A stretch of 64,000 nt of DNA from an uncultured Alphaproteobacteria bacterium (GCA_943787745.1 CALSNJ010000001.1:248001-312000); one strand, 5' to 3'; positions 16,303 to 61,528 are shown, numbered from the stretch's first letter. The notes: a model not told the origin generated them from the sequence alone. Made by a program: numbers and translations.

Positions 16303-16521
16303 TCAGTCGCCACGCGCCAAAGCGCGCACTTCGTTGTCTTCGGGGAACCGATGGGTTTCGAGCTTTGAATAAAGCACCGCACCCCCACGAGTGATCTCGA
16401 ACGAACCGGTTCGGCCCGGAGCGATCTCAACGGTTTCACCTTTTTCTACAAGCAGGTCTCTCGCACGGAGCGCACGCGGCTCGTAGTTTCAAATTTTGCA
16501 GAATTCGATGTGTATGGTCAT
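16303..16521 (-). CDS. SelW/Rdx-family selenoprotein with in-frame UGA (Sec11)
   Basis: Reading through TGA at 16489-16491 gives a 72-residue protein of the SelW/SelT/Rdx thioredoxin-like family: IEFCKI-U-NYEPRALRARDLL, then VEIAPGRTGSFEITRGGAVLYSK and RFPED near the C-terminus. Sec falls at the second position of the family's CxxC (Cys8-x-x-Sec11), as in SelW. A hairpin follows the UGA. The last stop is a second TGA after ARGD. The window also holds tRNA-Sec and SelD. Family role: small selenium-dependent thiol oxidoreductase. The start ATG at 16521 has no strong ribosome site. Read conventionally it would give only ten residues, so it would be missed. Confidence 0.85.
16465..16484 (-). promoter_or_regulatory. 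Candidate SECIS hairpin of the SelW-like gene
   Basis: Starting 4 bases past the UGA, ACGAGC (16484-16479) pairs with GCTCCGT (16471-16465) through six pairs with one bulged C and a 7-nt loop containing GU. Position and size agree with bacterial SECIS elements that recruit SelB, although these are loosely conserved. Confidence 0.5.
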
Positions 16522-20395: not shown

Positions 20396-21214
20396 GTGAT
20401 CCATACGCGTCAGAAGCTCGCGACGTCAGAGAGACGGACATGCCGGGTGATCGGACTGGCGCGCAGTTCTCTGCAATACCGACCGGCCCGGCGAGATGAT
20501 GATGCTCTGCGATTGGCCCTGATCCGGCTGGCCAAGCAATACGGGCGCTACGGCTATCGCAAGATAGCCGAACTGCTGCGCATCGAAGGTTGGAAGGTGA
20601 ACCACAAGAAGGTTGAGCGGATCTGGCGCGAAGAAGGCCTTCAACTGCCGCAACGGCACAAGAAGCGCCGACGGCTCTACCACAAGGATGCTTCGATCAT
20701 ACGGCTGCGGCCAACCCATCCGAACCACGTCTGGAGCATCGACTTTGTACACGACAAGCTCGACAGCGGTCGGAGTTACAAGATGCTGACAGTTCTCGAC
20801 GAGTACACCCGTCAGGCTCTAGCGGTCGCGGTTCGCACCAGGATGGGAGCTGAGGATGTCCTTGAGGCGCTCTACCCGCTACTCATGCGCCACGGCACTC
20901 CAGAATATATCCGTTCCGACAATGGCCCCGAGTTCGTCGCGGAAGCGATGCAGGACTGGTTGGCAAGGGTCGGGATCAAGCCTATCCGGATCTATCCCGG
21001 GTCACCCTGGGAGAATGGATACAACGAACGATTTAACGGAACTCTGCGCCGCGAGGTGCTCAACGCCGAATGGTTCACCACAACAAAGCAGGCTCAGGTC
21101 GTCATCAACCAGTGGCTCAGACAGTACAATCACATCCGCCCACATCAGGCCCTCAACATGCGCCCTCCTGTTCCAGAAACTCTAATCAGGAATGGCCCAG
21201 AACTTGGGGGCTAG
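20396..21214 (+). CDS. IS3-family transposase OrfB (DDE integrase core)
   Basis: A 272-residue rve-type integrase: an HTH_21 segment (YGRYGYRKIAELL) then the DDE core, with Asp in VWSIDFVHDKL, Asp in YIRSDNGPEF and Glu in SPWENGYNERFNG, the last two with the family's 35-residue spacing. It is complete, so the element should be able to move. It is usually made as a fusion to OrfA through -1 frameshifting rather than from the GTG at 20396. Confidence 0.93.
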   Translation: MIHTRQKLATSERRTCRVIGLARSSLQYRPARRDDDALRLALIRLAKQYGRYGYRKIAELLRIEGWKVNHKKVERIWREEGLQLPQRHKKRRRLYHKDASIIRLRPTHPNHVWSIDFVHDKLDSGRSYKMLTVLDEYTRQALAVAVRTRMGAEDVLEALYPLLMRHGTPEYIRSDNGPEFVAEAMQDWLARVGIKPIRIYPGSPWENGYNERFNGTLRREVLNAEWFTTTKQAQVVINQWLRQYNHIRPHQALNMRPPVPETLIRNGPELGG

Positions 21215-37941: not shown

Positions 37942-38085
37942 GTTTGTTTGCCTGCGGTAGGGTTTCGATCAGATCATGGGGAACGAATGGGGGGATTACC
38001 AGATGCGAAAAAATTTCGCAGCGTCGATGCTAGTTTTCTTGGCGACATCCGTCCATGCCTCGCACCAGATGAACGGAAAATCCGG

Positions 38086-39250
38086 ATGAACGCCCCAGTG
38101 AACCTTGACGGTCTCGAAGTTGGTTTTGATGTCCCGGCGTTGCCCGGTATGGATGAAGCCGACATCCAGACTCCCTGCCTTGTGCTCGATCTCGATGCGC
38201 TGGAACGCAACATCATGAAGATGGGGGACTACGCCAAGGCGCACGGCATGCATCTGCGCGTACACGGAAAGATGCACAAGTCGGTCGACATTGCGAAGTT
38301 GCAGGAACGCATCGGCGGCGCGGTCGGTGTCTGCTGCCAGAAATCTTCGGAGGCTGAAGTTTTTGTGCGCGGCGGCATCAAGGACGTGCTGGTGTCCAAC
38401 CAGGTCTGCGATCCGGTGAAAATCGACCGTCTGGCCCAACTGCCCAAACTGGGCGCACGGGTCATTGTCTGTGTCGATGACGCCATCAACGTCGCCGATT
38501 TGTCCGCGGCCGTCAGCCGGCACGGCACGCAGCTCGAAGTTCTGGTTGAGATCGATTGCGGCCAGAACCGTTGCGGTGTGACGACACCTGCAGAGGTGAT
38601 CTCCCTAGCAAAGGATATCGATGCCGCCTCAGGGCTGAAGTTCAGCGGGATTCAAGCCTATCTGGGTTCGGCCCAGCACATCGACAGCTATGCGGCACGC
38701 AAGGAAAAACTCGACGCCGCCATCGCGCAGGTCAAAGAGATCGTAAGCGCTCTGGGCGCGGCCGGGCTGGCGCCGGACATCGTGACCGGTGGCGGCACGG
38801 GCTCCTATAATTTTGAGAGCAATTCGGGCGTCTACACCGAGCTGCAGTGCGGCTCCTATGCCTTCATGGATGCCGATTACGGGCGGATCAAGGATCAGGA
38901 CGGCCATCGGTTTGATGCGGGTGAATGGGACTATGCCTGCTTCATTCTCACCCAGGTCATGAGCCATGTGAAAGCCGACAGGGCGGTCGTCGACGCCGGC
39001 CTGAAAGTCCAGTCCGTCGACAGCGGCCTGCCCGTTGTCCATCGGCCGCGACGATGTGGAGTACATCAGTTGTTCAGATGAGCATGGCGTGGTCACCGAC
39101 CCGGCTGGCGCCCTGAACGTCGGCGATAAGCTTCTGTTGGTCCCCGGCCACTGTGACCCGACCGCGAATATCCACGATTGGTATGTCGGGGTCCGGAACG
39201 GCAAGGTCGAAACCCTGTGGCCTGTTTCAGCGCGGGGTAAGGCCTTTTAG
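38086..39250 (+). pseudogene. DSD1-family PLP enzyme (D-threonine aldolase / D-serine dehydratase type), frameshifted
   Basis: A fold-type III PLP enzyme. The PLP lysine is in HGKMHKS (about 61-67), with CCQKSSEAEVFV, EIDCGQNRCGV and TGGGTGSY following. At 39037-39041 (GTCCATC) one extra base shifts the frame: the first frame ends in unrelated residues (HRPRRCG), while the +1 frame continues with IGRDDVEYISCSDEHG to the zinc-site motif PGHCDPTANIHDW and a normal C-terminus at 39250. Without the extra C it would be about 387 residues. Either a true pseudogene or a sequencing indel. ATG at 38086 is the family-consistent start. Confidence 0.85.
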
Positions 39251-42119: not shown

Positions 42120-42174
42120 ATAGGCCAACCAAAACCGCGCGTCAGATGCGGACTTGTTCTTTTGGAGAGAGACG

Positions 42175-44565
42175 ATGACCGATCAGGCAAACAATCCAGA
42201 TTCCAGCGTTCTTGGACGCCCCAACAGCTACATCGGCAAGGTCGTGCCGCGTCCCAATGTGCGCAAGCTTGTGCGCGGCAAGGGCCAGTTCGTTGACGAC
42301 CTGACGCTGCCCCGGATGCTGCACGCGGTGTTCCTGCGATCCCCCCATGCCAGTGCGATGATCAAAAGCATCGATACGAGTGCCGCAACAGGCATGCCCG
42401 GCGTGGTGCGTGTCGTGACGGGCAAGGAGATGGCCGAATATTGTGAGCCCTGGGTTGGTGTTCTGACCCATTTCAAGGGTCTCAAATCCGCGCCCCAGCA
42501 CGCCATCGCCGTCAATCAGGTGGCCTGGCAGGGTGAGGCTGTTGCCGCTGTGGTGGCCCAGAGCCGGGCCGAAGCTGAAGACGCCGCGGCCATGATCGAA
42601 GTCGAATACGATGTCCTGCCGGCGGTGACAGATGAAGAAACGGCGGGCGACCCCGACACCCATGTGATCCACCCCGAACTCGGCGACAACGTTGCGTTTG
42701 AGAACGGCGTGGATGCGGGGGACGTGGATGCCGCCTTTGCGGATGCCCATCATATCGTCGAAGAGACCTTCCACTTTGACCGCCACACGGGTGTGACGCT
42801 CGAGCCGCGGGTGATCCTGGCGGATTACGACGAGGCCGATGAAAAGCTGACTGTGCATATGTCCAATCAGGCGCCGCACATGATGCAGCATATCTTCGCA
42901 AAGCACCTGAACGTGCCCGAGGGTGATGTCCGCGTGATCTGCAAGGATGTCGGCGGATCCTTCGGCATCAAGGTGCATGTCTATGCCGATGAAATGGCCG
43001 CCGCCGGGCTGTCCCGGATGCTGGGACGTCCGGTCAAGTTTGCCGCCGACCGTCTGGAGTCATTTCTGACCGATATTCACGCCCGCGCCCATCGGGTGCA
43101 CGGCAAAATGGCCTTCAACGCGGATGGCGATATCACGGCCATCGAAATTGACGATCTGACGGGGGTCGGGCCGTACTCCATGTATCCGCGCACCAGTGCG
43201 ATGGAGGCCAATCAGGTCCTGAATTTCACCGGTGGCCCCTACAAGCACAAAAACTACCGGGCCAAGGCGAAGGTGGTGTTTCAGAACAAGAACGTCATGT
43301 GCCAGTACCGGGCCGTGGGACATCCGGTTGCCTTTGCGGTGACCGAAGGGTTGCTCGATAAGGGGGCGCGTGAGCTGAAGATTGACCCTGTCGAAATTCG
43401 CCGCCGCAATCTGATTGCAGATGACGCCTACCCGACCAAGGGTGCCAGCGGTATTGCCTTTGAGGGCCTGTCTCATCACGCCTCGCTCGAAAAATTGATG
43501 GCGGCAATTGATTATGACGGCATGAGATCCGAGCGTGATTCATTGCGTGAGAAGGGTATCTATCGCGGCATCGGCTTTGCTGCGATGATCGAACTGACCA
43601 ATCCGGGCGCTGCCATGTACGGCATTGGTGGCGCGCGGATTTCGTCTCAGGACGGTGCACAGGCGCGGCTCGATTCAAGCGGGTCGCTGGTCGTACACAC
43701 CTCGATCACCGAACAGGGGCAGGGAACCGATGCGATCGTTGCGCAGATCGCCGCGTCAGCCTTCGGCACATCGCCCGACAAGGTGAAGGTTGTGACCGGT
43801 GACACCGATCACGTGCCCACCGGTGGCGGGACCTGGGGGTCACGCGGCGCCGGTATCGGCGGTGAAGCGGTGCTGCAGGTTTCCAAGGTTCTGCGCCAGA
43901 ACATCAAGGAGATCGCGGGCCAGCTGCTTCAGGCTGACCCGGCTACCCTCGATATCCAGAAAGGCATGATTGTCGACCTGGGCACGGAAAACGAGCGCAT
44001 GGGCTTGGACGAACTGGCGCGGATTTCCTATTTCCGTTCTGACCTGATCCCGAAGGGGTTTCAGCCCGAGCTGATGGCGACGCGTCATTTTGTGCCGCGC
44101 GAATACAACATCGCATTCACCAATGGCATTCAGGCTTGTTATGTCGAGGTCGATCCCGAGATCGGGTTCGTGAAGATTCTCAAGCACTGGGTCGTCGAGG
44201 ATTGCGGAACCGTCATCAACCCGCAGCTCGTCGACGAGCAGGTGCGTGGCGGCGTGATCCAGGGTTTGGGTGGCGCGCTGATGGAAGAGTGCCGCTACGA
44301 TGATCAAGGCAATATGGTGAATGCCAATATGGCGGACTATCTGGTGCCCATGGCCGGAGAGATGCCTGATATCGACATCGGGCATGTGGAAACCCCGACG
44401 GCGGATTCCGAGCTCGGCGCGAAGGGCGCTGGCGAAGCGGGTACAGCGGGCGCGCCGGCGGTGGTGATGAACGCGATCAATGACGCGCTTTCACCGTTTG
44501 ATGTGAGCCTCGTTCATCAGCCGATCACGCCGGAGCGGATCATGAAGGCATTGGGCAAGTTCTGA
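42175..44565 (+). CDS. Xanthine dehydrogenase-family molybdenum-binding subunit (copy 1)
   Basis: A 796-residue large subunit of the aldehyde oxidase / xanthine dehydrogenase family. It has the Mo-pterin segments (CKDVGGSFGIKVH, MCQYRAVGHPVAFAVTE, SITEQGQGTDAI, and the active-site Glu in ELGAKGAGEAG). It would hydroxylate a carbon next to a heteroatom, or an aldehyde. No 2Fe-2S or FAD subunit is present in the window, so electron partners are elsewhere or the protein is atypical. ATG at 42175 has TTGGAGAGAGACG upstream. Confidence 0.92.
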   Translation: MTDQANNPDSSVLGRPNSYIGKVVPRPNVRKLVRGKGQFVDDLTLPRMLHAVFLRSPHASAMIKSIDTSAATGMPGVVRVVTGKEMAEYCEPWVGVLTHFKGLKSAPQHAIAVNQVAWQGEAVAAVVAQSRAEAEDAAAMIEVEYDVLPAVTDEETAGDPDTHVIHPELGDNVAFENGVDAGDVDAAFADAHHIVEETFHFDRHTGVTLEPRVILADYDEADEKLTVHMSNQAPHMMQHIFAKHLNVPEGDVRVICKDVGGSFGIKVHVYADEMAAAGLSRMLGRPVKFAADRLESFLTDIHARAHRVHGKMAFNADGDITAIEIDDLTGVGPYSMYPRTSAMEANQVLNFTGGPYKHKNYRAKAKVVFQNKNVMCQYRAVGHPVAFAVTEGLLDKGARELKIDPVEIRRRNLIADDAYPTKGASGIAFEGLSHHASLEKLMAAIDYDGMRSERDSLREKGIYRGIGFAAMIELTNPGAAMYGIGGARISSQDGAQARLDSSGSLVVHTSITEQGQGTDAIVAQIAASAFGTSPDKVKVVTGDTDHVPTGGGTWGSRGAGIGGEAVLQVSKVLRQNIKEIAGQLLQADPATLDIQKGMIVDLGTENERMGLDELARISYFRSDLIPKGFQPELMATRHFVPREYNIAFTNGIQACYVEVDPEIGFVKILKHWVVEDCGTVINPQLVDEQVRGGVIQGLGGALMEECRYDDQGNMVNANMADYLVPMAGEMPDIDIGHVETPTADSELGAKGAGEAGTAGAPAVVMNAINDALSPFDVSLVHQPITPERIMKALGKF

Positions 44566-44646
44566 GAACCGATTTTAAGTTGTAGGGACAGGTTTTAAAC
44601 CCGCCCCTGCCCGGGTCTGATATCAGGAATACGGAGAGATATTTCC

Positions 44647-44733
44647 GTCATTGCGAGGAGGCCAATGGCCGACGAAGCAATCCAGTTCCGCGCGTGGTAC
44701 CTCTGGATTGCGTCGCCTTCAGCTCGCAATGAC
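44647..44733. repeat. REP-like imperfect palindrome
   Basis: An intergenic element of about 87 bases opens GTCATTGCGAG, contains GACGAAGCAATCCAG and CTGGATTGCGTCG, and closes CTCGCAATGAC. The two halves are inverted repeats of one another. Its sequence style (CATTGCGAG, GAAGCAATCCAG) matches REP elements common in alphaproteobacteria. It lies just after copy 1 and next to the DUF983 gene. Confidence 0.75.
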
Positions 44734-44741
44734 AATGTGGG

Positions 44742-45107
44742 TCAGGAACTCTGTGCCCGCAAGGCCCAGATTGCGGCCATAAAGACCGCCTTGGCGCGGG
44801 GCAGGATCAGCAGCGACAGGCCGATCAGCACAGGGATGAGAATCGCGCTCATTTCCAGCGGTGAGAATCGCCCACTTTTCGACATGGAAATCATGATCGG
44901 CGCCATCAGGTGGCCAACGATCAGGATCGTGAGCCAGGGCGCGGCGTCGTCAGAGCGGATGACCGACCAGTCTTCGTGGCATTCCGGGCAGGAATCGACC
45001 TGTTTCAGATAGGCACGGAACAGGGATGCCCGCCCGCAGCGCGGACAGGAGCCCTTCAGGCCGCGACCCAACGCGGTCCAGAGATAACGTTTTTCACCGT
45101 GGTCCAT
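44742..45107 (-). CDS. DUF983 family membrane protein
   Basis: A 121-residue protein with two membrane segments (LTILIVGHLMAPIMISMS and MSAILIPVLIGLSLLILP) and an N-terminal zinc-ribbon-like CPRCGRASLF ... CPEC. This is DUF983, often found near cytochrome oxidase genes, though none is here. It sits on the opposite strand between two large molybdenum hydroxylase genes. Start placed at ATG 45107. Confidence 0.85.
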   Translation of the reverse strand: MDHGEKRYLWTALGRGLKGSCPRCGRASLFRAYLKQVDSCPECHEDWSVIRSDDAAPWLTILIVGHLMAPIMISMSKSGRFSPLEMSAILIPVLIGLSLLILPRAKAVFMAAIWALRAQSS

Positions 45108-45253
45108 GTTCGCTTTCCGATCAGGCCGTTCGGGACCCGATATATCATGAAAGATGTGCAACGGACTCGTGAGCGGCGACATGCCGCATACCTTTGATTC
45201 GTCTCTCCGAAGTCTCTACGCTGCCCGTCAACAAAGAACACAGGGCGGAAACC

Positions 45254-47644
45254 ATGAGTGTCGCAGACCACAGCAAAGAAGAAAGCGTTCTTGACCGCGA
45301 GAACAGCTTCATCGGGAAATCAGTTCCGCGTGCCAATGCAGCACGCCTGGTTGCGGGGCAAGGCAAGTATGTCGATGACCTGACGCTGCCGCGCATGGTG
45401 CACGTCGCTTACTATCGCTCGCCCTATGCCCATGCGCGAATTGTTTCGATCAATGATGAGGCCACGCTGGCCAGTCCAGGTGTGCTCCGGGTTTTCACAG
45501 GCAAAGATATTGCCGAGGTTTGCACACCCTGGGTCGGAACACTCGCTCATTTCAAAGGCATGAAATCCGCCCCGCAGCACGCCATGGCCGTAGACCGGGC
45601 CTGCTGGCAGGGCGAACCGGTTGCCGCGATTGTCGCGCACAGTCGGGCTGAGGCGGAGGATGCTCTTGAGCTTCTTGAGGTGGAATTCGAGGAGCTCACG
45701 GTACTCGCTGATCCCGAAGTGGTTCTGAATGAAGACTCCTATGTGATGCATCCCGACCTTGGTGACAATCTGCTGTTCGAAATGAATCATGATATCGGCG
45801 ACACCGAAAAGGCATTCACGGATGCTGCGGTCGTGGTCGAACAGACTCTCAATTTCGGTCGGCACACGGGTGTGTGTCCTGAATCCCGGGCGATCATCGC
45901 GGACTATCATTCCTCAGAGAATCGCCTGACGGCCTATCACTCGCACCAGGCCCCGCACATGATGCAGGACCTGTTTGCCCGTCACCTTGATATCCCGAAC
46001 CAGAATGTGCGGATCATGTGCGGCGATGTGGGCGGCGCTTATGGCGTCAAGGGGCACACCTATCCTGATGAGATGTCGACAGCGGCCATTTCGAAAATCA
46101 TGAAGCGGCCTGTGAAGTTCATTGCGGACCGGATTGAATCCTTCCTCACTGACCTGCATGCCCGCGATCACCGCGCACATGTGCGCGCCGCCTTTGCGCA
46201 AGACGGTGAATTGCTCGGAATCGAGATGGATGACCTGACGGGCGTTGGTGCTTATTCCATGTATCCGCGCACCAGTGCGCTGGAAGCATTGCAGGTCATC
46301 AATTATGTGGGCGCGCCCTACACGCACAAGAATTACAAGGCACGCTCGCAGGTCGTGTTCCAGAACAAGACCCCGATGAGCCAGTACCGCGCAGTCGGCC
46401 ATCCGGTTGCGGTTGCGATCACCGAAACCCTTATGGAAGAGGGTGCTCGCAAACTCGGGATGGATCCGGTGGATATCCGTCGTCGTAACCTCATGAAAGA
46501 CGATAGCTACCCCTGTGAGTTCATTACGGGATTGAAGCTTGAAGGGCTGTCCCATGAGGCCTCTCTCGACAAGCTCCTGGGTATGTTTGACTACGATGCG
46601 TTCCGCGCCGAGCAGAAAACCCTGCGGGAAGAAGGCATTTACCGGGGCATCGGGTTTGCCACTTTGGTCGAGATGACCAACCCGGGGCCACACACTTACG
46701 GGTTGGGTGGCGCACGAATTTCCTCTCAGGATGGCGCGGCTGCGCGGATGGATGCGTCAGGCGCCGTCATTGTCCAGACCAGCATCACTGAACAGGGTCA
46801 GGGCAGTGAGGCCGTCATCCAGCAGGTGACGGCAAGCGCCTTCGGGACCTCACCGGACAAGGTGAAGGTGATCTCCGGTGACACGGATAACGTGCCGGTC
46901 GGCTGGGGTGCTGGTGGCTCAGGTGGTGCGGGAATCGCGGGCGAAGCAGCGCTGCAGGCCGCAAAGGCCCTGCGCCACAATGTGCTCGATGTGGCCGCGA
47001 TCCTGTTGCAGGCAGAGGCCACGACGCTGGATATTCGTCTTGGCGTTGTTGTCGACCGGGCAACGGGTGAAGAACGCATGCCGCTGGAGGAAGTGGCGCG
47101 GGTGGCTTATTTCCGGCCTGATACCCTGCCGCAGGACTTCCAGTCGGAGATGATGGCGACCCGCCACTACATTCCCAAAAAGTACCCGGTTGCCATGACC
47201 AACAGCTTTCAGGCGGTCACGGTCGAAGTTGATCCGGAAACCGGCTCTGTTCAATTGCTCAAATTCTATTGCGTTGAAGATTGCGGCAAGGTCATCAATC
47301 CGCTGCTCGTCGATGAGCAGGTGCGTGGCTCCATTGTTCAGGGCATCGGCGGTGTTCTTTATGAAGAATGCCGTTACGACCTGGACGGCAACTTCCTGAA
47401 CGCCAACATGGCCGACTATCTCGTGCCGATGGCAGGCGAGATGCCGGATATCGAGATTGCGCATGTGGAAACCCTGACCAAGGAATCCGAGCTTGGCGCG
47501 AAAGGTGCCGGCGAGGCGGGTACGGCGGGAGCACCCGGCGCGATCCTCAATGCGATCAATGATGCGCTCAGCCCATTCGGGGCGAGTGTTCTGGATCAGC
47601 CGGTCAGCCCCGAGCGTGTGCTCAAGGCGCTGGGCAAGTATTAG
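45254..47644 (+). CDS. Xanthine dehydrogenase-family molybdenum-binding subunit (copy 2)
   Basis: A 796-residue close paralogue of copy 1, alike along its whole length (NSFIGKSVPRANAARLVAGQGKYVDDL, CGDVGGAYGVKGH, MSQYRAVGHPVAVAITE, SITEQGQGSEAV, ELGAKGAGEAG). The Mo-site Glu is kept. It also lacks small iron-sulfur and FAD subunits nearby. ATG at 45254 is used. It is followed after 32 bases by a glutathione S-transferase gene, probably co-transcribed. Confidence 0.92.
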   Translation: MSVADHSKEESVLDRENSFIGKSVPRANAARLVAGQGKYVDDLTLPRMVHVAYYRSPYAHARIVSINDEATLASPGVLRVFTGKDIAEVCTPWVGTLAHFKGMKSAPQHAMAVDRACWQGEPVAAIVAHSRAEAEDALELLEVEFEELTVLADPEVVLNEDSYVMHPDLGDNLLFEMNHDIGDTEKAFTDAAVVVEQTLNFGRHTGVCPESRAIIADYHSSENRLTAYHSHQAPHMMQDLFARHLDIPNQNVRIMCGDVGGAYGVKGHTYPDEMSTAAISKIMKRPVKFIADRIESFLTDLHARDHRAHVRAAFAQDGELLGIEMDDLTGVGAYSMYPRTSALEALQVINYVGAPYTHKNYKARSQVVFQNKTPMSQYRAVGHPVAVAITETLMEEGARKLGMDPVDIRRRNLMKDDSYPCEFITGLKLEGLSHEASLDKLLGMFDYDAFRAEQKTLREEGIYRGIGFATLVEMTNPGPHTYGLGGARISSQDGAAARMDASGAVIVQTSITEQGQGSEAVIQQVTASAFGTSPDKVKVISGDTDNVPVGWGAGGSGGAGIAGEAALQAAKALRHNVLDVAAILLQAEATTLDIRLGVVVDRATGEERMPLEEVARVAYFRPDTLPQDFQSEMMATRHYIPKKYPVAMTNSFQAVTVEVDPETGSVQLLKFYCVEDCGKVINPLLVDEQVRGSIVQGIGGVLYEECRYDLDGNFLNANMADYLVPMAGEMPDIEIAHVETLTKESELGAKGAGEAGTAGAPGAILNAINDALSPFGASVLDQPVSPERVLKALGKY

Positions 47645-47676: not shown

Positions 47677-48369
47677 ATGGCCGACGTCGAAATCATTAGC
47701 TCATCAACCTGTCCGTTTGCGCAGCGCACCCGGATGGCGTTGATCGAAAAGGGGATCGAGTTTGATCTCACCGCCATTGACCTGAATGACAAACCGGACT
47801 GGTTTCTGGAGATTTCGCCTTACGGCAAAGTCCCGGTGTTGCGTCACAACGGGGCTGTGATTTTTGAGTCAGCCGTGATCAATGAATACCTTGAAGAGGT
47901 GTTTCCTGAGCGTCCGTTGTTGCCCAGCGATCCATATCGTCGGGCACAGGCCCGAATCTGGATCGATTTCGCCAATGTGCGCTTCACCCCGCATGTCTAC
48001 AAACTCATGCTCGCGCAGGACGCCGATGCGCAGGCGTTTCAACGCGAACGTTTGACGAATGCGCTTCTCATGATGGAGCACGAGGGTCTGGGCAAACTCG
48101 GTGATGGGTCTTACTGGATGGGAGATGACATCTCTTTGGTCGACCTGACCTTCCTGCCTCATATGCAGCGTCTGGGTGTGTTAACCCATTACCGTGATTT
48201 TCAAATCCCGGATGAATGCGTACTGCTCAAGGCTTGGCTGCAGCTGATGGGCCGTCGGCCGTCGGTTTCGGTAGGTTCGGCTTCGCTCGATGTGCTGATC
48301 GAGAATTGGCGCAAATACGCCGAGAACACCTCAACTGGCACCACGGCTGCGGATATGCGCGCGGCCTAG
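47677..48369 (+). CDS. Glutathione S-transferase family protein
   Basis: A 230-residue GST: N-terminal thioredoxin fold (ISSSTCPFAQRTRMALIEKGIEF), GKVPVLRHNGAVIFESAVINEYLEEVFP with the cis-Pro and glutathione-binding Glu-Ser, then a helical C-terminal domain. The CPFAQR motif favours a redox or lignin-degradation-like (Cys-type) class, though SspA-like proteins are similar. Lies 32 bases after the second Mo-hydroxylase gene. Confidence 0.88.
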   Translation: MADVEIISSSTCPFAQRTRMALIEKGIEFDLTAIDLNDKPDWFLEISPYGKVPVLRHNGAVIFESAVINEYLEEVFPERPLLPSDPYRRAQARIWIDFANVRFTPHVYKLMLAQDADAQAFQRERLTNALLMMEHEGLGKLGDGSYWMGDDISLVDLTFLPHMQRLGVLTHYRDFQIPDECVLLKAWLQLMGRRPSVSVGSASLDVLIENWRKYAENTSTGTTAADMRAA

Positions 48370-48798: not shown

Positions 48799-50118
48799 CT
48801 AGTTCGTGAACGACAAATCGACCAGGAACAACGCCATCTGTGGAAATGCCGTCAACAACACGACGAAGATCAGGGAAACCACCACGAATGGCATCACGCC
48901 CTTGAAGATATCGACGAGTTCAACATCCGGTGCGAGGTTGTGCATCACGTAGACGTTGATCCCGATGGGCGGTGTGATCAGGGCAATCTCGACCATGACG
49001 ACGATGAAGATGCCGAACCAGACCGGATCGAATCCAAGTGCCAGAATCACAGGAAATACGAATGGCAGGGTCAGGATCAGCATGCCCCAGACATCGAGGA
49101 TCGCACCGAGGATCAAATACATCAGAACGAAGATCGCGAGTACGACGTAACGATTGACGCCAAGTTCTGCGATCCAGCTGATCAGCCCATCCGTCACACC
49201 TGTGACGTTGAGAAAAGCCCCGATGATGTGGCCGCCGACAATGATGGCAAAGATCATGGCGCTGGTGCGCCCGGTGTCTTTCAGCGCGCTCTTGACCGCG
49301 GGCCATTTGAACCGGCCCATCACCGTCATCACCACCACAACACCGCTGACGCCGATCCCGGCGGCTTCGGTTGGTGTGAAGATGCCAGCATAGATGCCGC
49401 CCAGAACAACAAGGAAAATGGTCAGAACCGGGATCAGTTTCCAGGTTGAAGCAAAACGTTCACCCCAGCTGTATTTGGGGCCGATGGGCCCCATCTCCGG
49501 ATTGATCAGACAGCGGCCCCAGATATAGAGCGCGTACATGGTTGCCAGAACAATCCCGGGAACCACGCCGGCAATGAACAGGTGACCGATCGAGGTTTCC
49601 GTCCAGATGCCGTAGGCCACAAGAATCACGCTCGGCGGGATCAGCATGGCCAGTGTGCCTGCTGAGGCAATCGCGCCCGTGGCGAGTTGCGGGTCATATT
49701 TGTAACGCCGCATTTCCGGCATCGCCATCGGGCCAATCGTGGCCACGGCGGCCACACTCGACCCGGTGACGGCACCGAAGCCTGCGCAACCGGCTACGGA
49801 TGTGATCGCCAGTCCGCCGGGCAGGCGCCCGAACCACTTCTGGACGCAGTCATACAAATCCACGGCCAGCTTTGACTGGTAGACGAGTTGCCCCATCAGA
49901 ATGAACAAGGGCAAGGCAATGAACACCAGTTCACTGCCTTTCTGAACAGCATTCATATAAATTTGTGTGAGGGCGGGCTTATAGCCAACGAGCACCCAGT
50001 AGCCTGCGGCGCCAACCACCGCCATGGCGAAGGCGATCGGAACACCCATCGCAATGAGCGCCAGCATGAGGACAATGCCGGCAATTGCGAGGGTTGTGGG
50101 ATCAATAAATTCCATCAT
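48799..50118 (-). CDS. dctM: TRAP transporter large permease (DctM), system 2
   Basis: A 439-residue, multi-span DctM protein (AGCAGFGAVTGSSVAAVATIGPMAMPEM, TLAMLIPPSVILVAYGIW, EAAGIGVSGVV, ALITPPIGINVYVM). It sits 2 bases from the dctQ gene. The sequence differs clearly from system 1, so a different substrate is likely. Confidence 0.95.
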   Translation of the reverse strand: MMEFIDPTTLAIAGIVLMLALIAMGVPIAFAMAVVGAAGYWVLVGYKPALTQIYMNAVQKGSELVFIALPLFILMGQLVYQSKLAVDLYDCVQKWFGRLPGGLAITSVAGCAGFGAVTGSSVAAVATIGPMAMPEMRRYKYDPQLATGAIASAGTLAMLIPPSVILVAYGIWTETSIGHLFIAGVVPGIVLATMYALYIWGRCLINPEMGPIGPKYSWGERFASTWKLIPVLTIFLVVLGGIYAGIFTPTEAAGIGVSGVVVVMTVMGRFKWPAVKSALKDTGRTSAMIFAIIVGGHIIGAFLNVTGVTDGLISWIAELGVNRYVVLAIFVLMYLILGAILDVWGMLILTLPFVFPVILALGFDPVWFGIFIVVMVEIALITPPIGINVYVMHNLAPDVELVDIFKGVMPFVVVSLIFVVLLTAFPQMALFLVDLSFTN

Positions 50119-50120
50119 CT

Positions 50121-50660
50121 CTATTTCTCCCCCTCGGCGATCTGTTCTTCCCAGGTTTCCTCGTCACCGGTCTTGCGGATGCCGAAGAACAGCAGGTGAA
50201 GGAAGTAGAGCGCCATCAGAACCGCGCAGAGTGAGACGAACCCGCGAAGGGTCCAGACGGGGATGCCGAGATATTCGGTGTTCTTGTTGATCTTGATCAG
50301 GAATGGAATTTCATTCGCGGTGCGAACGGCAAGCAAGACAGAGAAGAACAGGCCTGAGGCAGCCCACAGCGCCGTTGCGATTCTTTTCAAACCACCCTGA
50401 AAATGTCGGTAGAGCAATTCCATGCGGATATGGCCGTTCACCTTGGTGGTGAAAGGCAGGCTGCCAAACAGGATCAGCGTCAGCAGGGTTTCATTGAATT
50501 CAATCGACCAGTCGAAAGGCGCATTGAACAAATAGCGCATGATCACGTCGGCTGTGACGATGGCGGCCAATAGCGGAATGCAAACGCATGTCGCAAATGT
50601 GTGCAGAAAGTCGCTGCCGCGATCGGCCAGCGCGAGCAGTTTTTCGATGATGAAAGTCAT
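50121..50660 (-). CDS. dctQ: TRAP transporter small permease (DctQ), system 2
   Basis: A 179-residue, four-segment protein (LLAAIVTADVIMRYLFNAPFDWSIEFNETLLTLILFGSLPF) that pairs with DctM. The charged tail FGIRKTGDEETWEEQIAEGEK ends next to the dctM start. Confidence 0.92.
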   Translation of the reverse strand: MTFIIEKLLALADRGSDFLHTFATCVCIPLLAAIVTADVIMRYLFNAPFDWSIEFNETLLTLILFGSLPFTTKVNGHIRMELLYRHFQGGLKRIATALWAASGLFFSVLLAVRTANEIPFLIKINKNTEYLGIPVWTLRGFVSLCAVLMALYFLHLLFFGIRKTGDEETWEEQIAEGEK

Positions 50661-50694
50661 GATGAACTGTTCCCCCAGTCGTCATTTCACGGTT

Positions 50695-50729
50695 CCGGGC
50701 GGCTCTGTCCTCAGATATGAGCCGCCCGG
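50695..50729 (-). promoter_or_regulatory. Strong stem-loop between dctP and dctQ, system 2
   Basis: CCGGGCGGCTC (50695-50705) pairs perfectly with GAGCCGCCCGG (50719-50729) around 13 bases, in the 93-base gap after dctP. No T tract follows on the transcribed strand, so read-through is expected. Likely protects or separates dctP mRNA so that more binding protein than permease is made. Confidence 0.6.
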
Positions 50730-50753
50730 TGCTGTGACTTCAGATCAACGTGA

Positions 50754-51962
50754 CTAGTAGTCGATCACGCCTTTTACGGGGCTGTCGATCACCATCTGGA
50801 ACTGATCGTTCCAGTTCATTTTTGCGAACTTGTCACGGTTTGCCATGAGATCGGCGAGCATTGCCTTGGCCGGGCGACCGGCCTTCTCGTTGCTTTCGAT
50901 CCATTCCTCGGTCACCGGGGCGATGATCTTTTCCCACTTGGCACGCTCTTCCGGGCTCGGCTTGATCATCTCCAGGCCAGCTTTCTTGAAGACGGCGTCA
51001 CGCACGCGACGTGACTGACGCTCATAGAAAAGTTGTGCCAGTGCGAGGTTCGTCTTCTGGGCCCAGTTGTAATAGACGGTCTTCAGATCGTCGGGCAGCC
51101 CATCGAAGAACTCCGGATTGACGCAGTATTCGAGGTTCACGGAGAACAGGCTGACATCATTGTGGTATTTGGAGACTTCCTGCAGCTTGAAGATCGGGAA
51201 GACCGGATCATTCATGGCCACGCCGTCCACCAGTCCGCGCTGTAGCGAGGTATAGGCTTCGCCCGACGGGATATTGATTGCGACAGCACCCAGTGCTTTC
51301 AGGGATTCCGACTGCATCCGGCCACCAGCACGGATTTTCGAGCCCTTGAGATCAGCCAGGGTTTCGTATTTGTCGTTGCCGATGACGTTGTAGGGCGGCG
51401 TCACCATGCCACGGCCGAGATAGACACCAAGGTTCTCGTATTCGTCCTTGAAGTATTTCGGGTAAAGCGCGACGTCCGTCATGGTTGCTGATGCTGAATC
51501 GTCAAACAGGAACGGCAGTGTCATGCCGTGCAGCATGTTGAAGCTTGTCGGCTCATAGATCATGAAGCAGGCGGTGTAATCGGCAATCCCGTCACGTGCG
51601 GCGGTGAAGCCTTCGCGCTGCGGATGCAGCGACTGTGAATGGAACTTCTGTACCTTGATCTTGCCATTGGACTCGCGCTCCAACTGCTCGAGAGCTTGCG
51701 TGTTCAGCTTCTCGATGCCGGCAACGCCGGGCAGATAGGACGCATAACGATAATTGATCGTCGGGCCGTCATAGGTGACTTTTGGATTTGGCAGCTCGCC
51801 CTTGATCCACTGTTCGGCCAACGATGTTGCAGCAACGGCACCCTCATAGGTGGTGATGGTGCTGCCGAACTTGTGGCCGTCCGCGTTGGCGGGCGCCGCC
51901 GCGAGGGTCAGCGCGAGGGCGGCGCTGCCTGCGAGCAGGGCTGGTTTGATCGTGTTTTTCAT
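50754..51962 (-). CDS. dctP: TRAP transporter solute-binding protein (DctP), system 2
   Basis: A 402-residue periplasmic binding protein, longer than system 1. Signal peptide LLAGSAALALTLAAAPANA, then NYRYASYLPGVAGIEKLNTQALEQLE, the binding Arg region KGSKIRAGGRMQSESLKALG and GLVDGVAMNDPVFPIF. First gene of its operon; ATG 51962 follows GGGAGGAAACAAAT. Confidence 0.92.
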   Translation of the reverse strand: MKNTIKPALLAGSAALALTLAAAPANADGHKFGSTITTYEGAVAATSLAEQWIKGELPNPKVTYDGPTINYRYASYLPGVAGIEKLNTQALEQLERESNGKIKVQKFHSQSLHPQREGFTAARDGIADYTACFMIYEPTSFNMLHGMTLPFLFDDSASATMTDVALYPKYFKDEYENLGVYLGRGMVTPPYNVIGNDKYETLADLKGSKIRAGGRMQSESLKALGAVAINIPSGEAYTSLQRGLVDGVAMNDPVFPIFKLQEVSKYHNDVSLFSVNLEYCVNPEFFDGLPDDLKTVYYNWAQKTNLALAQLFYERQSRRVRDAVFKKAGLEMIKPSPEERAKWEKIIAPVTEEWIESNEKAGRPAKAMLADLMANRDKFAKMNWNDQFQMVIDSPVKGVIDY

Positions 51963-52263: not shown

Positions 52264-53497
52264 ATGGTTCACGTCCGTGAAATGCCTGAACATTTGCGCG
52301 ATGCGCTGATCAATCAGGAGTTACCGGAATACGGTGACACGCCCTGGGTGACACCAAAACCGCTGGATGAGTGCCGGGTGGCATTGATTTCCACGGCCGG
52401 CCTGCATCGGCGCGAAGACCCGCCGTTTACGCCGGGTGCGGGTGATTATCGGATCATCCCTGATGACATACGACATGGATGAACTCACTATGAGCCATGT
52501 GTCGACCAATTTTGATCGCAGCGGTTTCTATCAGGACGTGAACACATCCTTTCCGATCGACCGGCTGCGCGAGTTCGCCGAAGAAGGCGTGATCGGCTCG
52601 GTTGCCGGCCGTCATTTTTCCTTCATGGGGGCCACACCGCCGACGGTGATGGAGCCGATCGCCCGTGATCTTGCAAAGGTTCTCAAGGCAGACAATGTCG
52701 ACGCTGTTGCGCTCGTCCCTGTCTGACCCCAATGCACGCGCGCCGTGGGCGGGCTTGCACACTATCTCGAAGAAGAAGGCATTCCGACAACGCAGATCGC
52801 GTTGATCCGCAAACATGCCGAAGAAATCAAACCACCGCGCACACTCGCGGTGCCCTTTGAACTGGGCCGCCCATTGGGTGCGCCCAACGAGCCGGATTTT
52901 CAGCGTCGCGTTCTGCGTGAGTGTCTTGAGCTTCTGGCGCGCGAATCCGGTCCTGTTCTTGAGGACTTCCCCGATGACGCCCCGGGTGCCGAACCTGATC
53001 CGGAGGGCTGGGCCTGCCCGGTTAATTTTGCGGCACCTGTCGAAGACCTCAGTGATGAAGACTTGATCCGTCAGGCTCTCGAACAGGAAATCGCGCTGCT
53101 ACGTCCCTGGTATGAGGAATCCAAGCAGAATCGCAAAGGCCGGACGAATTTCGGTATCTCGGGTATGACACCCGAGGAAATCGCGGCGTATATCGCCAAG
53201 GTCACCGTTGCGCGCGAGGATTCGGGATCCCCAATTGCGGACAAGCCGCCGCATCTTGCCTTCAAGCATATGGCTGATGACATGCGTTACTACTATATGG
53301 AGGCTGCTATCGCGCGCCCCGATTCGCGGGTTAGTGATTTGGAGATAGGCAACTGGCTGTGGGGGGAGACCACGCTGGGCAAGGTTCTGGTGGTGATCCG
53401 GGACTGGGCGATGGAGACCGAGCATCCGGGCTTCAAGGCGCTTGCGCCTACGGCCATGGTGCCAACCCATCAGCGGCATCGCACAATCCACGGCTAG
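52264..53497 (+). CDS. GrdB-like reductase-family selenoprotein, UGA at Sec154, with a frameshift
   Basis: The sequence matches the glycine/sarcosine/betaine reductase selenoprotein B family: RVALISTAGLHRREDPPF, then MSHVSTNFDRSGFYQDVN and FPIDRLREFAEEGVIGSVAGRHFSFMG, then VALVPV-U-PQCTRAVGGLAHYLEEEGIPT. TGA at 52724-52726 stands where the family has Sec or Cys, giving Sec154-x-x-Cys157; the frame continues to 53497 without a stop. Separately, one extra base near 52459-52474 breaks the frame between PDD and YDMDEL, so the true state is uncertain. No GrdA, GrdC or thioredoxin partner is nearby, so it is probably not a standard glycine reductase. Converges on selD. Confidence 0.8.
52727..52749 (+). 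promoter_or_regulatory. Candidate SECIS hairpin of the GrdB-like gene
   Basis: Directly after the UGA, CACG (52735-52738) pairs with CGTG (52744-52747) around a 5-base loop, and CC (52729-52730) pairs with GG (52748-52749) across a 4-base bulge. Position suits a bacterial SECIS element, but the stem is short. Confidence 0.4.
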
Positions 53498-55710
53498 TTG
53501 CGGTAGCTGATCTGGCATTCGGAACTTTTGCGTTTTTGGACCTTTCCGATGATTGCGGCAGCTGGCGCGGCACCCGCGTGCAGGTCAGCAAGGCATACTT
53601 CTGCGCGATGTTCGGGAACGCTGAACAGCAGTCCCCCAGACGTCTGCGGGTCGAACAGCAACGGATGGACCGGATGATTTGTTGGTGCGAAAGCATGACC
53701 GGCTGAGCCTTCATTGCCGGGACGTAGCGTGCTTTCAACACCTTGACGGGACAGTTCGATAGCGCCAGCGAGAACGGGTATTGCGTCCAGATCAATTTCG
53801 GCAGAGGTCGAGGACGCCTCAAGCATTTCCAGAAGATGACCGGCAAGCCCGAACCCGGTGACATCGGTTCCGGCCGTTGCGCTGTGGTCACGCATGACTT
53901 GCACACATGGTTTTAGCGAGGTTTGCATGGATGTCAGTGCAGCATCGATCCAGTCACCACGTGCTTCGGCGCGCATATCTGCAGCAAATAGAACGCCGGT
54001 TCCAATCGGTTTGGTCAGGATCAAGGCGTCGCCGGGACGGAGACCGCCTTTTCGGATGATGGTCTCAGGTGCTGCATAGCCGTTGATGGTCAGGCCGAAG
54101 GCCATTTCTGCACCTTCGCCGGTGTGACCTCCGGCAAGCACAGCGCCGGCTTCGGCAAGGGTTTCGGTCGCCCCGGCGAGCAGCTGATAAAGATCGCCAC
54201 CCATTTTGTCGTCATCACCATGGGGCAACATGACGGCCGCCAGAGCTGTGTGGGGGTCGGCACCCATAGCAAAGATGTCGCCCAGACAATGATTCGCCGC
54301 GATCCGTCCAAACAGGAAGGGGTCGTCGATAAAGGCCCGAAACTGATCCACTGTCTGGATCAGGGATTTTCCCGCCGGAGGCGTCATGACGGCAGCGTCG
54401 TCGGGCGCGTCGAGGCCCTGATCGAGACCTTCAATTGTCTGGATTGGAAGCCGGCTTAATGCACGGCGCAGGACGGGAGCGGGGACCTTGGCGCCACAGC
54501 CACCGCAGCGCATGTCCTCCAGCACGTCGTTTGTTGCGCCTTTGCCCGCATTCATGTCGGGCAGCTCCTGATACTTCTTCATCCACCGCCGGTCGATCCA
54601 GTCCTTCCAGCGCCAGACCCAATGGCCTTCAAAAGCAAAAGGCCCACGCGCGGCAATCGCATAGTGTTCGCCGGTGGTGATCAGCGCGAGGGTTTGGCCC
54701 TGCGGTTTGAATATTCTCAGCGCTTGCCCCGTCGCAACGCGTCGCAGGTTTTCTGCCAGATAGGGCCCCTGCCGAACTGCGTAGACGCCCGCCTTTGGCA
54801 GGTTGTGACTGTCCATTGACGCAGCATCTCCGACCGCAAACACCTGCGGGTGTGACGGGGAGCGCAAATGGTCGTCCACCCGGACAAACCCGTGATCGTC
54901 GCGTGCGAGGCTTGTTTCGGCCAGCCATTTGGGTGGACCAGCGGAGGTCACCAATATTGTCTGGTCGCTGGGTACAGACTTGTCGCCCGCGAGTTCGACG
55001 CGCGTCGCAGTAATGCTTGTGACAGCTGCGCCGAGGCGAAGGTCGATGTTGCGTGTCTTCAGGGCGCGCACCATCTTTGCCCGTGCCGCCGCGTTGTAAC
55101 GGGGCAACAGCACGTTGTTGGCCTCAATCAGCGTGAAGCTGAATGACCCAGGCTCGCGGCCCAGTTCTTTGGCCGCTTCCCGAAGACGGAAGCTCAGTCC
55201 GAGAATCAGCTCAACGCCACCAGCCCCGCCCCCAACGACGGTCAGATGAAACGGTCCCTCATGCGTGCGAATTCGCTCGGTGAGCCCGTGATAGGCCTCG
55301 AGAAACCGATCGATGGGTTTGACGGGAAGGGCGTATTCCGCGCCTTCAATATCTAGCGTGGAGGGCGTGGACCCGGTGTCGATCGACAGCAGGTCGAAGG
55401 GAATGGCCGGTCGGCCCGCGAGCGCCAGAAAGTTATTGTCGAGATCGATGCCGGTTGCCGGTGCATGGATCAGCCGTGCTTTGGCAAACGCTGCCAGCGG
55501 TCGCAGATCAATATGGGCTTCGGCCTGAGAATAGTGACCGGCGATGTATCCGGGGATCATGCCGGAATAGGGGGTCAGCATGTCGCGCGCGATCAGGGTC
55601 AGGCGTACGCCTGGTTCGGGCTTCATGCCAAAACGCTTGAGCACATCAACATGACTGTGGCCGCCGCCAACCAGAACGATGTCGCGGCGAATGGGAACCG
55701 TTGGCGTCAT
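53494..55710 (-). CDS. selD: NADH dehydrogenase-like FAD domain fused to selenide, water dikinase (SelD)
   Basis: A 738-residue fusion. Residues 1-370 form a pyridine-nucleotide-disulfide/NDH-2-like FAD domain (DIVLVGGGHSHVDVL, LTVVGGGAGGVEL, VFAVGDAA). From about 395 follows SelD, which makes selenophosphate from selenide and ATP for Sec insertion and tRNA selenation: MRCGGCGAK with Cys402, Cys405 and Lys408, TVDQFRAFIDDPFLFGRIAANHCLGDIFAMGA, AGGHTGEGAEM and TDVTGFGLAGHLLEM. This fusion is known in many proteobacteria. ATG 55710 is chosen since the longer frame runs into the tRNA gene. Confidence 0.95.
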   Translation of the reverse strand: MTPTVPIRRDIVLVGGGHSHVDVLKRFGMKPEPGVRLTLIARDMLTPYSGMIPGYIAGHYSQAEAHIDLRPLAAFAKARLIHAPATGIDLDNNFLALAGRPAIPFDLLSIDTGSTPSTLDIEGAEYALPVKPIDRFLEAYHGLTERIRTHEGPFHLTVVGGGAGGVELILGLSFRLREAAKELGREPGSFSFTLIEANNVLLPRYNAAARAKMVRALKTRNIDLRLGAAVTSITATRVELAGDKSVPSDQTILVTSAGPPKWLAETSLARDDHGFVRVDDHLRSPSHPQVFAVGDAASMDSHNLPKAGVYAVRQGPYLAENLRRVATGQALRIFKPQGQTLALITTGEHYAIAARGPFAFEGHWVWRWKDWIDRRWMKKYQELPDMNAGKGATNDVLEDMRCGGCGAKVPAPVLRRALSRLPIQTIEGLDQGLDAPDDAAVMTPPAGKSLIQTVDQFRAFIDDPFLFGRIAANHCLGDIFAMGADPHTALAAVMLPHGDDDKMGGDLYQLLAGATETLAEAGAVLAGGHTGEGAEMAFGLTINGYAAPETIIRKGGLRPGDALILTKPIGTGVLFAADMRAEARGDWIDAALTSMQTSLKPCVQVMRDHSATAGTDVTGFGLAGHLLEMLEASSTSAEIDLDAIPVLAGAIELSRQGVESTLRPGNEGSAGHAFAPTNHPVHPLLFDPQTSGGLLFSVPEHRAEVCLADLHAGAAPAAAIIGKVQKRKSSECQISYRN

Positions 55711-55806
55711 GAATCTTTCAGTCTGACTGGTGCCGGTTGCTGGCGTTGGTTGTACGTCACCATAAACACCCAAGGGGCTGAACCCTTCCCGCAATAACGC
55801 GGAAAT

Positions 55807-55902
55807 TGGCGGAAGAGGGTGGGAGTCGAACCCACCAGGCACGTCTAACGCCCCTCACCGGTTTTGAAGACCGGGCGCCCCACCGGGGAACGGTCCTCCT
55901 CC
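55807..55902 (-). tRNA. selC: tRNA-Sec (anticodon UCA)
   Basis: A 96-base tRNA with all Sec hallmarks: an 8-bp acceptor (GGAGGAGG with CCTCTTCC), anticodon stem CCGGT/ACCGG around loop CTTCAAA (anticodon TCA), a long variable arm, a T-arm with GGGTTCGACTCCC and encoded GCCA end. It lies 97 bases upstream of selD on the same strand, and the two may share a transcript. It decodes the three in-frame UGA codons in this window. Confidence 0.96.
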
Positions 55903-61051: not shown

Positions 61052-61528
61052 CTACTTGTTTTTCATGGACTCGTAGAAATTGACCATCTTGACGATGTCT
61101 TCAGCATCCATCCGGCCGAGTGGCCCATCGCTGTAACTTGCGGCCATCACATTGCCATCGGGTCCCAAAACGAATTCCGAAGGCTGGATGATCTGGCGAC
61201 GGTCTTCCCAGTAGGAACCAAGCGTGTCAGCCATTTCGCGGGTTACACCGTAACCAACGGGGAAGTTTACTTCATCAGCAACTTCCTGGGCTTTCTCGAT
61301 TGGATCGACACTGGCGGCGACAACGGTCACGCCAATTTTTTCAAATTCTGCTTTCTGGTTTGCGAAGCCGACTAACTGACGGCGACAATAGGGTCACCAG
61401 TGGCCACGATAAAACAGGATGACCCGGTATCCATCACCGAGACCATCCGGCAGGTCGAGCGTTCCACCATCGACGAGGTTAAGCGTCATCTTGGGGAAGG
61501 CCGAACCAATGCCAAGCTTGTCTGACAT
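61052..61528 (-). CDS. Peroxiredoxin-like selenoprotein with in-frame UGA (Sec45)
   Basis: Reading through TGA at 61394-61396 joins two blocks into one 158-residue AhpC/TSA-type protein: MSDKLGIGSAFPKMTL ... VILFYRGHW-U-PYCRRQLVGFANQKAEF ... VTVVAASVDPIEKAQ ... FVLGPDGNVMAASYSDGPLGR. The family motif is YRGHWCPYCRRQL, so Sec replaces the first Cys: Sec45-x-x-Cys48. Family role: thiol peroxidase or thioredoxin-like reduction of peroxides; Sec raises reactivity. A hairpin follows the UGA. Conventional reading gives only the first 44 residues plus a false second gene. Confidence 0.88.
61367..61383 (-). promoter_or_regulatory. Candidate SECIS hairpin of the peroxiredoxin-like gene
   Basis: Ten bases past the UGA, GCCG (61383-61380) pairs with CGGC (61370-61367) around a 9-base loop with a C-G pair inside and GUU in the loop. 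Consistent in position and shape with bacterial SECIS elements, but short. Confidence 0.45.

Follow-up and report, generated by a model that had tools for sequence, protein, structure and literature searches.

The selenoprotein families that concern us here have been seen before in marine metagenomes. Sequencing of Sargasso Sea and GOS samples had already yielded PrdB, SelW-like and Prx-like selenoproteins and the Ndh-SelD fusion (PMC1088965, PMC2398784), and these selenoprotein families rank among the commonest in marine metagenomes (PMC2398784). The Ndh-SelD fusion is characterized there as an N-terminal pyridine-nucleotide oxidoreductase followed by a C-terminal SelD with a CxxC motif (PMC2398784). 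A 2006 survey of the selenocysteine (Sec)-decoding alphaproteobacteria known at that date found selABC next to fdhA, which encoded their sole selenoprotein (PMC1794560).

We analysed a stretch of 64,000 nucleotides, here called the window, which corresponds to bases 248,001–312,000 of contig 1 of a 3.27-Mb genome in 7 contigs. The nearest named relatives of the source genome are Rhodospirillaceae/Alphaproteobacteria MAGs, several of marine sample origin. An earlier note on this DNA had read 3.6 kb of it as a compact Sec locus with a tRNA-Sec, a SelD fusion and a UGA-containing GrdB-like gene. All three elements are real, being recovered by ARAGORN and Rfam, by TIGR profiles and by an in-frame UGA, respectively (Table 1), and the sequence evidence supports, as a prediction, the central reading of the region as a compact, functional Sec locus that includes a GrdB-like selenoprotein. 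The UGA-containing gene also converges on selD as described, the two genes lying tail to tail with stop codons that overlap at 53494–53497. It is likely that the locus is a Sec cassette, in which the tRNA-Sec, the SelD fusion and nearby selB and selA genes are combined with a PrdB-like client enzyme. In this it resembles the fdhA-selABC clusters of proteobacteria (PMC1794560, PMC8124441), where the Sec machinery is grouped with one client selenoprotein, but the client in the window is PrdB-like rather than a formate dehydrogenase; the genome has no match to TIGR01553 above cut-off, and its weaker matches contain no UGA. The window's fusion shares its two-part architecture with the Ndh-SelD fusion but, set against the relevant passages on the latter (PMC2398784), differs in its position beside tRNA-Sec and in facing, tail to tail, a gene for a PrdB-like selenoprotein. 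Our search of the open-licence literature turned up neither an account of a selABCD-prdB-like cassette nor one of the C-terminal domain discussed below. As far as checked, the parts are ordinary, and the arrangement and the long-form protein architecture are new.

Table 1. Features of the Sec locus and of its surroundings, in window coordinates.
Feature	Position	Strand	Evidence and remarks
tRNA-Sec (selC), anticodon UCA	55807–55902	-	ARAGORN (TCA); Rfam RF01852, 71.2 bits
Pyridine-nucleotide oxidoreductase-SelD fusion (predicted selenophosphate synthetase), active site CGGCGAK	53494–55710	-	TIGR03169, TIGR00476, PF07992, PF00586, PF02769; 3' of tRNA-Sec in relatives too
Long-form PrdB/GrdB-like selenoprotein gene	52264–53497	+	~410 codons in relatives; 1-nt insertion near 52467 shifts the frame here
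UGA (Sec) codon of PrdB-like gene, motif U-P-Q-C	52724–52726	+	UGA kept in relatives (82 sequences); Cys in L151, L155 and L098
Predicted SECIS hairpin of PrdB-like gene, apical loop GUG	52733–52759	+	Fold and synonymous-site freeze
Prx-like (AhpC/TSA) selenoprotein, UPYC; Sec codon 61394–61396	61055–61528	-	PF00578, 3.8e-22; UGA in 16 other genomes
SelW-like Rdx selenoprotein, CKIU; Sec codon 16489–16491	16306–16521	-	PF10262, 6e-15; TIGR02174 over cut-off; UGA in 14 other genomes
GST-fold protein (SspA/glutathione transferase-like)	47677–48369	+	Directly upstream of PrdB-like gene in relatives without TRAP genes
Two CoxL/xanthine-dehydrogenase-family molybdenum large subunits	42154–47644	+	Cluster members kept in relatives
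TRAP transporter (DctM, DctQ, DctP)	48799–51959	-	Separates GST from PrdB-like gene in the window and in two genomes of the same genus

The score of the tRNA-Sec exceeds the Rfam gathering score of 47, and it is the sole match above that score genome-wide. The selD gene starts approximately 100 bp downstream of the tRNA and encodes a protein of 738 residues, which scored 459.5 bits against TIGR03169 (cut-off 310) and 292.3 bits against the selD model TIGR00476 (cut-off 125), and whose SelD part has a CxxC plus Lys active site. A TIGR03169 domain is thus joined to an above-cut-off SelD domain, as expected of an Ndh-SelD protein, and the fusion is assigned by these profiles as a selenophosphate synthetase. 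The earlier note had seen neither selA nor selB and placed them elsewhere in the genome. They are absent from the window, but they lie close by, with selB (contig 313,895–315,817) and selA (contig 315,814–317,247) approximately 2–5 kb past the right end of the window (contig 312,000). Both were found in the genome search, so the possibility that the genome lacks them falls away; selA, selB, selC and selD form a full set, with the SelA and SelB profiles above cut-off.

The PrdB-like gene is a single frame of approximately 410 codons in relatives, but in this assembly it is split, a point missed at the first reading. The frame from 52264 is open to approximately 52470–52480; homology stops near 52467 and then resumes in the next frame. 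A DNA alignment places one extra base within 52462–52471, separating residues 1–68 from the remainder of the protein, and this base is absent from every relative, which ruled out a programmed frameshift. The broken frame might instead mean that the window's own copy is a pseudogene in the course of being lost, the insertion representing genuine decay. We consider this unlikely, as the gene is intact in the same-genus genomes G003, G004 and G005 and the hairpin that follows the UGA is undamaged in the window. Furthermore, dN/dS against the three same-genus copies was 0.056–0.072 downstream and 0.010–0.025 upstream of the insertion; both halves resemble the value between intact copies, indicating strong purifying selection. 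With undamaged copies in the genus and purifying selection acting on each half, we attribute the frameshift to an error of assembly or to damage of very recent origin. An unrelated gene resembling D-threonine aldolase/D-serine dehydratase (window 37948–39200) has a second apparent frameshift near 39,050. This second split gene suggests indel errors in this assembly, which fits assembly error rather than gene decay.

We refer to the protein encoded by the intact relatives as the long form. It shares with PrdB (TIGR04483) and GrdB (PF07355) a homologous domain of approximately 195 residues, with profile-level homology and a UxxC Sec motif, but differs from them in its length of approximately 410 residues, in a helical C-terminal domain that belongs to no Pfam family, in scores far under the equivalog cut-offs, and in that no PrdA/GrdE partner was found. 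Scores against the GRDB superfamily model PF07355 were 29.9–37.6 bits (gathering score 22), and the description of the gene as GrdB-like holds to that extent. It does not hold at the level of TIGR01918 (glycine/betaine/sarcosine reductase selenoprotein B), against which the scores were 46–56 bits (cut-off 65.45); on sequence comparison, the long form resembles PrdB more closely than GrdB, and it has the extra domain in addition. Intact relatives scored 105–126 bits against the PrdB equivalog TIGR04483, compared to a cut-off of 300. True PrdB or GrdB membership was rejected, these curated cut-offs not being reached. The C-terminal domain, of approximately 150–170 residues, was modelled at a pLDDT of 92 (87.6 for the whole model), and has no Pfam match and no clear solved relative in the PDB. 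For the whole protein the structure search gave nothing convincing, with a best Z of 8.3 to generic alpha/beta folds; both results apply to the structures compared, such that a family missing from them could still be a relative.

The possibility has also to be weighed that the gene encodes a genuine D-proline or glycine-type reductase subunit, with the pyruvoyl partner encoded elsewhere in the genome. Residues 31–225 of the intact relatives align to residues 24–219 of PrdB, there is 36% identity to the annotated PrdB of Terrisporobacter, and the marine surveys name the family PrdB in their relevant passages (PMC1088965, PMC2398784). We nevertheless regard this as improbable, given a score of approximately 122 bits where the equivalog requires 300 and given the additional domain. 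In addition, PF09338, a model for the PrdA/GrdE pyruvoyl partner that does match a genuine PrdA, had no match in the source genome or across the 385 class genomes searched, a result that is suggestive, the genome search having been run without a positive control; no PrdA-like sequence was present in any neighbourhood fetched. Given scores far under the curated cut-offs, the failure to find a pyruvoyl partner and the extra helical domain, the long form is predicted not to be a typical D-proline reductase. The 'proline reductase PrdB' of the Sargasso Sea and GOS data is probably the same family, sharing the UxxC motif, pfam07355 and marine abundance; the relevant passages of those accounts mention neither the C-terminal domain nor a lack of PrdA, and say nothing of linkage with sel genes (PMC1088965, PMC2398784). 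No plasmid record covered 80% of the long form, the matches listed being to clostridial-type PrdB. The Terrisporobacter plasmid pTPHSE2 (L198) carries prdA, prdB and selD on a 21.7-kb replicon.

Several lines of evidence bear on how the UGA of the PrdB-like gene is read. The codon is kept in nearly all close relatives, and homologues do not end there but read through it or carry Cys at its position. SelA was above cut-off in 35 of the 38 genomes with the UGA form but in 0 of the 11 with the Cys form only (Fisher p = 1.2e-8; among 385 genomes of the class); no selA match was found in the UGA-form genomes G285, G334 and G034. The predicted hairpin starts 9 nt downstream of the U of the UGA, and its core stem pairs are kept in 98–100% of 82 different sequences. 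Among the 67 synonymous columns that could be compared, codons 158–160 vary least. Six compensatory cells were observed in the hairpin compared to a mean of 0.8 after shuffling, with 0 of 1000 shuffles reaching 6, under a null in which codons were shuffled among sequences sharing the amino acid, so that column codon use is preserved and relatedness is not modelled. There is strong support for the prediction that the UGA is decoded as Sec, because the codon is conserved in relatives and replaced by Cys in selA-less genomes, and because the hairpin combines compensatory changes with synonymous sites that are frozen. In this organism UGA also serves as an ordinary stop, and even terminates the SelW-like gene, but that the UGA codons in question are ordinary stops, with the downstream frames being separate genes or chance, is very improbable and was rejected on the distribution of selA and Cys forms, the hairpin compensation and the synonymous freeze, in keeping with single protein families that span each UGA, the alignment of UGA with Cys and the complete Sec machinery.

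The two further UGA-containing genes reported in the window were confirmed, a codon-usage scan and a motif scan recovering the Rdx/SelW-like and the AhpC/TSA Prx-like gene. The first combines a CxxU motif with an Rdx profile above cut-off and the second a UxxC motif with an AhpC-TSA profile above cut-off; the UGA of each is kept in nearly all of its close relatives, and in both genes the nucleotides after it are nearly frozen. The Prx-like gene is approximately 5 kb from the tRNA-Sec, and 36 kb separate the SelW-like from the PrdB-like gene, so the compactness noted earlier applies to tRNA-Sec, SelD and the PrdB-like gene but does not extend to all of the selenoproteins. Three Sec proteins are dense when set against the one-FdhA picture of 2006 (PMC1794560), but they belong to families that are among the commonest marine selenoproteins, according to the relevant passages of PMC2398784. 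At least one more Prx-like UGA gene (FRGHWUPYC) is present elsewhere in the same genome (L191; G000 contig 2, 1350000–1352500).

The order CoxL-CoxL-GST-(TRAP)-prdB-like, converging on selD and tRNA-Sec, is found in most relatives of the window's family with enough contig; some of these relatives have one CoxL only. A tandem second PrdB-like copy is present in three same-genus genomes (L043, L044 and L050) and absent from the window. A distant CoxL-like gene (approximately 32% identity) was repeatedly seen beside a second PrdB-like copy or selB (L046, L060, L051, L053 and L061). Assignment of both CoxL-like proteins near selD as labile-selenium molybdenum hydroxylases was rejected, their scores being far under the TIGR03311 and TIGR03313 cut-offs. 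Outside the window's family the neighbours of the PrdB-like gene vary. A GST gene precedes the long form in some gammaproteobacteria, and in other Rhodospirillales (L116, L119 and L122) an AhpD/CMD-like selenoprotein gene (CAYU) is its immediate upstream neighbour, approximately 500–750 bp away.

Association of the long form with sel genes is observed in a variety of arrangements in other families of alphaproteobacteria. In L195, selA-selB-selC-selD-prdB-like all run in one direction, and in L196 selA-selB is followed by selC-selD fusion-prdB-like. The prdB-like gene converges on selC-selB-selA in L194 and on selD-selC-selB-selA in L197 and L056, is divergent from selA in L192, and is near selD-selA-selB in L193. 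Of the 56 genomes sampled that have SelA, 29 contain the long form, and 13 of these 29 have it within 20 kb of selA, a count that is a lower bound owing to contig breaks; the random expectation is approximately 1% or less per genome. On a quick tree the linked state requires 9 changes, of which at least 4 are forced by well-supported branches. The long form is tied to sel genes, in differing gene orders, in approximately 8 alphaproteobacterial lineages.

These data can be combined into a model for the Sec cassette. SelD would supply selenophosphate, perhaps with reducing power from the fused flavoprotein domain, SelA would convert Ser-tRNA-Sec to Sec-tRNA-Sec, and SelB would insert Sec at the UGA. 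For the client, we propose reductive cleavage by a Sec nucleophile, because of its homology to PrdB/GrdB: as in those enzymes, the Sec selenolate in UPxC would attack a substrate carbon, and the nearby Cys would resolve the adduct, resulting in reductive bond cleavage. No pyruvoyl subunit would be needed, as the helical C-terminal domain would bind the substrate or contact a partner instead; such reductive, pyruvoyl-free chemistry is put forward tentatively. Electrons may come from a thiol system, with the adjacent GST-fold protein and glutathione, and in some relatives the AhpD-like selenoprotein, as candidates, and we infer glutathione or another thiol donor with no pyruvoyl partner. The presence of CoA-transferase, acyl-CoA dehydrogenase and molybdenum hydroxylase genes nearby suggests a pathway for the catabolism of organic acids. 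Note that the candidate substrate class and electron donor are both drawn from gene neighbours only.

Many related families show the pairing of sel genes with the PrdB-like gene, in gene orders that differ, and the PrdB-like enzyme is therefore probably a main reason why these bacteria keep the Sec trait. We are more guarded about the wider proposal, to which we give somewhat less than even confidence, that the long form acts as a selenium enzyme of one component, free of pyruvoyl and equipped with a new C-terminal domain and a thiol electron donor of its own, which travels with selABCD as a cassette and is a main reason for Sec retention in many alphaproteobacterial lineages. In the long form, repeatedly paired with the Sec machinery, there is a concrete client that would explain Sec retention in uncultured marine alphaproteobacteria. 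PrdB-like selenoproteins, which rank with the commonest in the ocean (PMC2398784), carry the name of an anaerobic clostridial enzyme that they probably are not; the long form calls for caution in annotating D-proline reductases, and defines an enzyme of one protein, with a new domain, that can be tested. Elsewhere in the window, an open frame at 20396–21214 resembles an IS3-type transposase, as judged by eye from its translation.
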